Assembly (NCBI RefSeq): GCF_009936215.1 | Contig: NZ_AP019551.1 | Coordinates: 1,264,708 to 1,328,707 of the forward strand | Source: Athalassotoga saccharophila | GTDB lineage: Bacteria > Thermotogota > Thermotogae > Mesoaciditogales > Mesoaciditogaceae | Reading direction: 5' to 3' | Length of the DNA: 64,000 bases | Shown: one piece after another, positions 6,420 through 38,335 of the stretch | How the letters are laid out: each line of letters starts with the position of its first letter | How positions within the stretch are numbered: the first letter of the stretch is position 1 | Program-made: the position numbers and the translations under genes | The notes under the pieces: generated by a model | The model's input: the letters and a program-made list of their open reading frames with translations, nothing else | Database searches by the model: none | What the model was told of the DNA's origin: nothing

Positions 6420-6448
6420 TTGACAATGTTTCATTCACTTTGTATAAT
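6420..6448 (+). promoter_or_regulatory. Consensus sigma-70-type promoter of the rpmH operon
   Basis: TTGACA at 6420-6425, a 17-base spacer and TATAAT at 6443-6448: both hexamers are perfect. It is followed by a short leader with AAGGAGG before rpmH at 6481. This is what one expects for a strongly expressed ribosomal-protein gene and probably serves the whole following overlapping run. Confidence 0.88.
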
Positions 6449-35993: not shown

Positions 35994-36020
35994 GTCTGGC
36001 TTTGCCAGACCTTAATTAAG
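35994..36020. promoter_or_regulatory. Paired palindromes between ROK gene and binding-protein gene
   Basis: GTCTGGC (35994-36000) and GCCAGAC (36004-36010) form a 7-bp inverted repeat with a TTT spacer, directly followed by the palindrome CTTAATTAAG (36011-36020). There is no T-run after it on the minus strand, so it is more likely an operator or processing hairpin than a terminator. It overlaps the last codons of the ROK gene. Confidence 0.45.
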
Positions 36021-37178
36021 ATTATTCACTATATTTTCTATTGCAAGCACGTTAGAACCGAAAACGGGTGGTTCTATACTTTCAAATGAGGTATCGCGAA
36101 ACTTCAAATTTTCAAGTACTCCGGGCATTGCTCTTTTGGATATTCGGCTTAATATCTCATCGCCGAAATATTTCCAGATGTGATTGTAACCTCCTCCAAT
36201 AATTATGAGTTCGGGATCGAAGGTATTGATGATGTTCAAAATTCCAATTGAAAGATAATAGATGAATCCTTCAAGTGCATCGATGGCTTTCTTTTCAGAT
36301 TTTATATAAAGTTCAACAAGATCGGAAAACTTTTCAGTGTAGGTTCTCCCCCTCAATTTCTTTCCGTATTTTTCATATTCGATCACCGGTAGCACAAGGG
36401 ACGCGTATCTTTCGAGACATCCGTAATTTCCACAATGACATTTTATTTCGGATCTCGCCTCGACAGTTATATGTCCGACCTCACCGCCGGCAAATCCACT
36501 TCCTCTCAGTATTTTGTGATTTATCATCGCACCTCCGCCTATTCCCTGACTTATGTAAAGGAAAAAGAGATTTTCACTTTTTCTCGCGTCATCGGCAAAG
36601 AGACTCTCGGCAAGTACAGAAAGGTTTGCCTCATTGTCTGCCATGATCTTGTATTTGTGATTTATCATTTCTTTCAAATCCACATTTTTCCAGTTAAGGT
36701 TAGGGGCATAGATTATTCTTGCCATTTCGGTGTTGACTATGCCCGGAAATGCAAAGACTATGTACGTGAATTCATTCAAAGGGAATTTTTTTTCTAAGTA
36801 ATCTATCGTATCGTTGACTTCTGATATAAAAGATTTCAAAGATCCGGTATGGAATTTCTTTATGGACTTGATCTCTTTATTTAAAAACCCTATAGCGACG
36901 GTAGTTTGTTCTACCCCGACGTTGAAGATAACACTCGACACGAACTTGCTTGTGACGGAGATATCGATTGGCTTCCTTCCAATTCCGATCTTTTCGGAGT
37001 ATCCAATCTCTTCTATAAGACCATCTGCAAAAAGATCGGAGACAATTCTACTTACCGTGCTTGGAGTAAGTTTTGTGTACTTTGCAAGTTCCGCTCTTGA
37101 GGTAGGACCATTTTCTATAAGGTAGCGGAGAATCATCTGCTTGTTCATTATTTTCATGCTCTGGAGATTTATCTTCAT
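36012..37178 (-). CDS. ROK-family (XylR/NagC-type) transcriptional repressor
   Basis: A 388-residue sugar-responsive repressor. Residues 10-65 are a winged helix-turn-helix (ENGPTSRAELAKYTKLTPSTVSRIV). The ROK kinase-like domain follows, with an ATP-type Gly-rich loop region and the zinc motif CHCGNYGCLE after GEVGHITVEA; IIIGGGYNHI lies near the end. It heads the operon with the binding protein and two permeases, so it most likely controls sugar uptake and itself. The upstream minus-strand region has two TATAAT words without a good -35. Confidence 0.93.
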   Translation of the reverse strand: MKINLQSMKIMNKQMILRYLIENGPTSRAELAKYTKLTPSTVSRIVSDLFADGLIEEIGYSEKIGIGRKPIDISVTSKFVSSVIFNVGVEQTTVAIGFLNKEIKSIKKFHTGSLKSFISEVNDTIDYLEKKFPLNEFTYIVFAFPGIVNTEMARIIYAPNLNWKNVDLKEMINHKYKIMADNEANLSVLAESLFADDARKSENLFFLYISQGIGGGAMINHKILRGSGFAGGEVGHITVEARSEIKCHCGNYGCLERYASLVLPVIEYEKYGKKLRGRTYTEKFSDLVELYIKSEKKAIDALEGFIYYLSIGILNIINTFDPELIIIGGGYNHIWKYFGDEILSRISKRAMPGVLENLKFRDTSFESIEPPVFGSNVLAIENIVNNLN

Positions 37179-37354
37179 CTTCTATCTTTTATCCCCTTTA
37201 ATTTCTTCTATGAAAGAATAAATTATTTTACTTTCAAATGCAATTCCAAAATTCAGAGATTATAGGTTATTATAGACAATTTATGGCAATTAATTAAACA
37301 ATGCTATTTATTTCGTCGATTATCTTTGATAAATCTGTAAAATCTTCAAAAATC

Positions 37355-37383
37355 TTGACAACAGATCAAAAATGTGCTAAAAT
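37355..37383 (+). promoter_or_regulatory. Perfect sigma-70-type promoter of the small transcription unit
   Basis: TTGACA at 37355-37360, spacer of 17 bases, TAAAAT at 37378-37383. It points to the short unit at 37388-37590 and nothing else on this strand. The gap 37179-37594 (416 bases) holds this promoter, the small ORF and its hairpins; the part 37179-37354 is AT-rich leader of the ROK gene with no further feature. Confidence 0.8.
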
Positions 37384-37387
37384 CAGA

Positions 37388-37414
37388 TCGTGATCTGGTT
37401 AGGTAGGATCACGA
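37388..37414 (+). promoter_or_regulatory. 5' inverted repeat directly before the ribosome site
   Basis: TCGTGATC (37388-37395) and GATCACGA (37407-37414) are perfectly complementary (8 bp, 11-base loop). The expected transcription start falls at about 37388-37391, so the RNA would begin with this hairpin, and its right arm abuts AAAGGAGGG. It may stabilise the RNA, act as operator, or control access to the ribosome site. Confidence 0.65.
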
Positions 37415-37428
37415 AAGGAGGGAGTTAT

Positions 37429-37506
37429 ATGTGGTGGTCATGGCAACTTTATGATCTCTACCTCAAAGAACTCCAGGAAAGAATGGAGAAGAAATCGAGC
37501 AAGTAA
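37429..37506 (+). CDS. Possible 25-residue Trp-rich small protein
   Basis: An ORF of 25 codons beginning MWWSWQLYDLYLKELQ and ending in KKSSK. AAAGGAGGGAG lies six bases before the ATG, one of the strongest ribosome sites in the window. The first half is aromatic and hydrophobic (three Trp, two Tyr), the second is charged and helical, like a short amphipathic or membrane-edge peptide. It has its own promoter and terminator and no partner gene on this strand. I recognise no family. It could equally be a leader in a structured RNA. Confidence 0.5.
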   Translation: MWWSWQLYDLYLKELQERMEKKSSK

Positions 37507-37534
37507 CACACCTTGCTCTACCGGAAGGTAGAGC
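37497..37534 (+). other. Mutually exclusive hairpins over the small ORF stop codon
   Basis: GAGCAAG (37497-37503) pairs with CTTGCTC (37512-37518), placing the TAA stop in the loop. Alternatively GCTCTACC (37515-37522) pairs with GGTAGAGC (37527-37534) around a GGAA (GNRA-type) tetraloop. The two share bases 37515-37518, so only one can form at a time; a ribosome at the stop codon would favour the second. Confidence 0.6.
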
Positions 37535-37567
37535 CTTAGTCGTAAAAAATCAATTGTTATAAATTAG

Positions 37568-37589
37568 AAGCCACCTCTGGTGGCTTTTT
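37568..37589 (+). terminator. Terminator of the small transcription unit
   Basis: AAGCCACC (37568-37575) and GGTGGCTT (37579-37586) form an 8-bp stem with a TCT loop, followed by a T-run to 37589. It ends plus-strand transcription just before the convergent sirtuin gene, and may act from the other side too. Confidence 0.85.
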
Positions 37590-37594
37590 CCATT

Positions 37595-38335
37595 TTATAG
37601 AAGAGAAATTATTTCGTTCGAAATTTTTTCAAGATCCTCTCTGAAAATCAATGAAGCCCATCTATCGAGTGGTGTAGGCTCTCTATTTACAATTACAAGT
37701 TCTCCACCCTTTTTGAGCGTTATTTGAGGAAAGGATGCGGCAGGGTAAACCGCGAGCGATGTTCCCATTGCGATCATCAAGGTTGAATCGTCTATCATCC
37801 TGTAGGCTTTATCAACCTCAGATTCTGGCAATAACTCTCCGAAAAAGATTATATCTGGCTTTATGACACCACCGCAATCGCATCTTGCAACTTTGTCCGG
37901 TGAGATGATGGATCGACTGTACATTTCGTCAAGAGAATATTCCCTCAAGCATTTGATGCAATGTCCTTTCTCTATACTTCCGTGTATTTGCGCAACATTC
38001 AAAGACCCGGCCTTTTTGTGGAGCATGTCTATATTTTGGGTTATAACACCATTTACGAGTTTAAGAGATTCTAATTTTTCGATCATGTAATGAACTACAT
38101 TTGGCTTTGCGTCCTTCATTGTGAATATATTCTCGACGGCAAATTTGTAAAAGTAAGACGGGTTCGAAAGGAAATTATCAAGTCCGAAGAGTTCTTCGGG
38201 ATCATATCTTGAATAGATTCCGGATGGAGATCGAAAATCCGGTATTCCGCTTGGAGTGCTTACTCCGGCCCCGGTCAGGATTGTAACCCTTCCATGATGA
38301 GAGGTTATTTTATCGATTAGAGATCCGACATTCAC
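37595..38335 (-). CDS. cobB: Sir2-family NAD-dependent protein deacylase
   Basis: A 246-residue sirtuin that removes acyl groups from lysines with NAD use. It has GAGVSTPSGIPDFRSP (NAD site), TQNIDMLHKKAG, the catalytic His in QIHGSIEKG, a zinc site built from CIKC and CDCG, and PDIIFFGE, AMGTSLAVYPAA. The start is GTG 38335 with GGAGG encoded in the end of the MFS gene; one base separates the two genes. Confidence 0.95.
   Translation of the reverse strand: MNVGSLIDKITSHHGRVTILTGAGVSTPSGIPDFRSPSGIYSRYDPEELFGLDNFLSNPSYFYKFAVENIFTMKDAKPNVVHYMIEKLESLKLVNGVITQNIDMLHKKAGSLNVAQIHGSIEKGHCIKCLREYSLDEMYSRSIISPDKVARCDCGGVIKPDIIFFGELLPESEVDKAYRMIDDSTLMIAMGTSLAVYPAASFPQITLKKGGELVIVNREPTPLDRWASLIFREDLEKISNEIISLL

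Follow-up and report, generated by a model that had tools for sequence, protein, structure and literature searches.

A conserved small transcription unit beside a ROK regulator gene in Mesoaciditoga, with a candidate regulated gene for a 25-residue microprotein

An intergenic gap of exactly 416 bases (37179-37594) in the window, as the whole 64-kb stretch of DNA analysed is called here, lies between a ROK regulator gene (36012-37178) and a Sir2 gene (37595-38335) and harbours a complete small unit made of a promoter, a palindrome, a 5' stem, a Shine-Dalgarno region, an ORF, hairpins and a terminator (37355-37588). Is this arrangement a chance pattern, the leader of another gene, a microprotein gene, a regulatory RNA, or the last two at once? 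The question was raised by an earlier note on this DNA, whose promoter, 5' hairpin, Shine-Dalgarno sequence, 25-codon ORF, two hairpins and terminator were all located where it had placed them. The length of the gap was also correct, but the flanking genes, said to be divergent, are in tandem on the minus strand; it is the unit itself that is divergent from ROK, its left neighbour, and convergent with Sir2, its right neighbour.

Genomic context and phylogenetic range

Four genomes of the genus Mesoaciditoga (Thermotogota) were examined, the window's own (G000, 2.04 Mb) and three close relatives recorded as Mesoaciditoga sp. ARK-11, 'Thermotoga sp.' SulCav_AS07-7 (SulCav) and bacterium FK4.bin83 (FK4). 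Each carries the unit next to the same ROK gene, the ARK-11 contig stopping within the second 3' hairpin. Searched with the DNA and with the peptide, 60 relatives yielded the unit in the remaining three genus members and in none of six genomes belonging to other genera of the family. Similarly, three genomes from other genera (G004-G006) have a ROK orthologue without the unit upstream, within the limits of their contigs. A peptide profile applied to 103 Thermotogota genomes gave convincing matches only in the four genus members, the weaker matches not being checked singly, and RNA model R1 found nothing credible outside the genus in the same 103 genomes. Of the R1 matches outside the genus, the best ones inspected fall within unrelated coding regions or at their start, and its second-best matches within the four Mesoaciditoga genomes, considered as possible paralogues, fall at unrelated places. 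The unit is single copy in the window's genome and was not found in viral, phage or plasmid collections. An Rfam search of the whole window gave zero matches at the gathering score, and no Pfam match to the 25-residue peptide was obtained. The refuting outcome named beforehand, an ORF and hairpins conserved in no relative, did not materialise, the unit being present in four genomes with peptides that are 80-100% identical. Judged by these comparisons, the unit is a real conserved feature and more than a chance pattern.

The surroundings are conserved on one side of the unit. In all four genomes the ROK-ABC sugar transport operon is divergent from it. Beyond the terminator the window has Sir2, FK4 has a GntR-like frame with an ABC-2 transporter, and SulCav has an Opp operon that possesses its own promoter-like TTGACT-N17-TAGAAT 3' of the unit's terminator. 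No same-strand gene follows the unit in the window. Because the downstream gene differs among relatives while the terminator is kept wherever the contig extends to it (three genomes), the unit stands alone and is not a leader, as the earlier note had proposed.

Promoter, candidate operator and 5' stem

The plus-strand promoter is of the sigma-70 type (TTGACA-N17-TAAAAT, 37355..37383, 11/12 consensus), with a -35 element TTGACA at 37355-37360, a 17-nt spacer and a -10 element TAAAAT at 37378-37383 that is extended by a TG one base before it. In a consensus scan, only three sites in the 64 kb score at least 11/12, the unit's promoter included; the other two lie at 6420 (+) and 58314 (+) and score 12/12, and 11/12 with an extended -10. 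Spacer and -10 are nearly invariant in the alignment of the four genomes, and transcription would start at about 37390. At the opposite end, an intrinsic terminator (37566..37588, +) shows a compensatory change on both sides of its stem, CC/GG in the window becoming CGC/GCG in FK4 and SulCav. Sequence signals and their conservation therefore give the unit a promoter, a ribosome site and a terminator of its own. The strength of these signals had been read as a sign of high expression, a reading that found no specific support since Thermotoga maritima generally has unusually strong promoters and ribosome sites (PMC3636130); a palindrome at the start site suggests regulation instead.

This palindrome, which the earlier note did not mention, is the near-perfect 18-bp ATCAGATCGYGATCTGAT (37382-37399) and straddles the -10/+1 region in each of the four genomes. 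It is near-perfect or perfect in the two more distant relatives, occurring as ATCAGATCGTGATCTGGT in the window and ARK-11, as ATCAGATCGTGATCTGAT in SulCav and as the perfect ATCAGATCGCGATCTGAT in FK4. In pattern searches, the sole exact occurrence of CAGATCNNGATCTG in the genome is the unit's own site. Within the family the core CAGATCGYGATCT has one other recurrent place only, a conserved intergenic site beside mnmA found across Mesoaciditogaceae in seven genomes (G000, G001, G003, G005, G006, G007 and G009; L044:1501-1513, equal to G000:C1:732171-732183, and L092, L094, L095, L096, L097 and L099). The site lies between mnmA and rpoN in Mesoaciditoga, or between mnmA and a rhomboid protease gene elsewhere, and overlaps a -35 element; the names mnmA, rpoN and rhomboid were read from translated sequence and not from a family search. 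Inspection by eye of the ORFs around mnmA revealed rpoN as the only obvious regulator gene. Among the inspected further copies in the genome that differ from the palindrome at one position, all but the mnmA site fall within ORFs; beyond the family, sequences identical to AGATCGYGATCTTG are inside coding regions. A second CAGATCGTGATCT in G005 (C62) was dropped as it sits within a miaB-like coding gene. The position of the palindrome across the start site, together with a core common to the mnmA site, suggests a repressor-controlled gene. We infer that a DNA-binding regulator acts at the palindrome, and the mnmA-side copy looks like a candidate operator of that regulator.

Two further elements were observed in this region. 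A GATCA half-site in the promoter spacer (37363-37369) is kept in all four genomes and lies 21 bp, or two helical turns, upstream of the left half of the palindrome. Immediately upstream of ROK, a separate near-perfect palindrome (37206-37250, TTCTATGAAAGAATAAATTATTTTACTTTCAAAT region) is conserved in the four genomes, is perfect as TTTATTCTTTCATAGAAAGAATAAA in L003 and is probably the ROK regulator's own operator.

Immediately after the start region, TCGTGATC (37388-37395) pairs with GATCACGA (37407-37414). The 8-bp pairing had been described before and stands, but not its placement at the RNA 5' end: the left arm begins about 2 nt upstream of the presumed +1 at 37390, so the 5'-terminal stem-loop of the RNA (GTGATC...GATCAC, 37390..37414, +) would comprise about 6-7 bp. 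The bases of the left arm also belong to the DNA palindrome. In FK4 the stem GTGATC/GATCAC changes to GCGAT/ATCGC, with a compensatory replacement of U-A by C-G on both sides. The hairpin is thus partly a putative DNA operator, and the right arm together with this change speaks for an RNA stem as well. The loop of the stem and its distance from the Shine-Dalgarno region vary among relatives, and the predicted 5' UTR differs in length by up to 17 nt. The Shine-Dalgarno region AAAGGAGGG (37414..37422, +) is located about 6 nt before the ATG and is present in the relatives as AAAGGAGGG or GAAGGAGTG.

The reading frame and the hairpins at its stop codon

The ORF (37429..37506, +) encodes the 25-residue peptide MWWSWQLYDLYLKELQERMEKKSSK and ends with TAA. 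The peptide is identical in the window and ARK-11, and becomes MWWTWQVYDLYQKELQEKMGKKSSK in SulCav and MWWTWQVYDLYQKELQEKMEKKSSK in FK4. The N-terminal half is rich in Trp and Tyr, codons 2, 3 and 5 specifying Trp, and the C-terminal half is rich in Lys and Glu. By inspection, 9 of the 25 residues are charged and there is no uninterrupted hydrophobic stretch. An amphipathic helix was considered, and the argument for it cannot be made because the hydrophobic moment is not above that of shuffled sequences. The frame has no indels in any of the four genomes and its stop, TAA or TGA, is at the same place in all. Third codon positions hold 9 of the 14 variable sites (p 0.017), and Nei-Gojobori dN/dS values range from 0 to 0.27 over six pairs, both tests having limited power as the four genomes form two pairs. 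These patterns of substitution indicate purifying selection on the ORF and support a microprotein. The earlier note had left the choice between a microprotein, a regulatory RNA or both; the first is thus supported, the RNA hairpins are conserved too, and both may hold together.

Two hairpins lie at the 3' end of the frame. H1 (GAGCAAG/CTTGCTC, 7 bp, 37497..37518, +) encloses the stop codon and has a predicted folding energy of -8.5 kcal/mol; its stem is invariant in all four genomes and five of its eight loop bases vary. H2 (GCTCTACC/GGTAGAGC, 8 bp, 37515..37534, +) has a stem that is invariant in three genomes and a loop in which all four bases vary. The sharing of 37515-37518 (GCTC) by the two hairpins was as described earlier, but only H1 overlaps the stop codon, H2 being entirely downstream of it. 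Similarly, the GNRA-type loop exists in the window as GGAA but is not conserved, the loop being GGAA, GTAA or CACC overall, with CACC in FK4. Because of the common bases, H2 and full H1 are mutually exclusive, and folding predictions in three genomes place the two states about 0.4-1.5 kcal/mol apart. Among the columns 3' of the sense codons, variation affects 0 of 19 stem positions and 9 of 12 loop positions (Fisher p 1.1e-5). No covariation was found in H1 or H2 across the four genomes since the stems are invariant, and a constraint at the DNA level or from an antisense transcript may also underlie this invariance. The fold of 37387-37590 is well below shuffles in the window (z -3.57), and z-scores range from -3.5 to -4.0 in three genomes. 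Conserved RNA elements are found outside the ORF, as invariant stems with variable loops at H1 and H2 and as compensatory substitutions affecting the 5' stem and the terminator. By alignment, conservation exceeds that of the surrounding sequence in the ORF, in the two competing hairpins at its 3' end, in the start region and in the terminator.

Function and alternative explanations

With moderate confidence, the unit is best explained as a regulated, monocistronic gene that encodes a 25-residue microprotein and is restricted to the genus Mesoaciditoga. A transcription factor would bind the palindrome over -10/+1 and block transcription until derepressed, and the same factor may act at the mnmA intergenic region. 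The resulting mRNA of roughly 195 nt would be shielded by the 5'-terminal stem and the terminator hairpin, and the strong ribosome site would drive translation of a peptide that may act by binding a partner. H1, predicted to form only when no ribosome occupies the stop codon, would tune mRNA stability or translation termination together with H2. Beyond its role as mRNA, the transcript possibly also acts as an RNA.

This last point leads to the main rival, a dual-function RNA that both encodes the peptide and base-pairs with target mRNAs, possibly of sugar-transport genes, which we consider rather unlikely. SgrS/SgrT and SR1/SR1P are dual-function RNA precedents. A third is VcdRP, a dual-function small RNA with a 29-residue product and a role in carbon metabolism (PMC8672173). 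The unit resembles all three in its short, separate transcript bounded by a promoter and a terminator of its own, its short conserved ORF, its structured RNA and its sugar-gene surroundings; the conservation of its hairpins beyond the ORF and the linkage, in four of four genomes, to the ROK gene for a sugar regulator and to an ABC transporter for sugars point the same way. In contrast to these systems, the conserved hairpins of the unit are at the stop codon. Almost every strongly conserved 3' base belongs to a stem and the linker at 37538-37565 varies, leaving no evident invariant unpaired seed. A bolder reading, which appears improbable, is a translation-gated RNA switch: a ribosome at the stop codon would open H1, whose 5' arm consists of the last codons, and allow the nearly iso-energetic H2 to form, such that the RNA would sense its own translation and change its stability or its action on targets, under a regulator common to the unit and the tRNA-thiolation gene mnmA.

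It is very unlikely that the unit is solely a non-coding regulatory RNA with an incidental ORF. The conserved hairpins would fit such an RNA, whereas dN/dS well below 1, the third-position bias, the retained Shine-Dalgarno sequence and a frame free of indels, although the 5' UTR changes in length, all speak for coding. The two remaining explanations fail on defining features. A type I toxin governed by an antisense or structured-RNA antitoxin, to which we give very little credence, shares with the unit a short ORF on a structured RNA, and many sRNA-encoded ORFs have been predicted to be such toxins (PMC5521070). In contrast to type I toxins, the peptide has no membrane-spanning segment or other transmembrane-like hydrophobic stretch, a consensus scan detected no minus-strand promoter of at least 9/12 within 37390-37590, and the unit is a single-copy feature of one conserved locus, adjoining the same gene in all four genomes and not found in the phage, plasmid and viral collections searched. 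Least credible is a Trp attenuator or leader of a structural gene lying downstream now or formerly. The Trp codons, mutually exclusive hairpins and terminator recall a trp leader, but no same-strand gene follows in the window, the downstream genes of the relatives differ, the SulCav Opp operon has its own promoter-like site, the Trp codons finish about 54 nt before H1, too distant for classical stalling, and no U-run comes after H2.

The microprotein gene preferred here belongs to a kind already known, as conserved ORFs of 10-50 codons on sRNA-sized transcripts are common; a survey that predicted them widely in bacteria averaged 29 per species (Friedman et al. 2017, PMC5521070). The unit resembles these sRNA-encoded microproteins in ORF and transcript size, and differs from them in a peptide that is Trp-rich, genus-restricted and devoid of a membrane segment, and in the operator-like palindrome at its start site. 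As far as the searched libraries show, this particular unit is new. In Thermotoga maritima, 13 putative ncRNAs have been described, four of them with small ORFs and without peptide evidence (PMC3636130). To a deep-branching thermophilic phylum with few described small RNAs and proteins the unit would thus add a microprotein gene whose peptide and RNA both appear to be under selection, and the putative operator common to the unit and the mnmA intergenic region across Mesoaciditogaceae should make the regulator findable by DNA pull-down.
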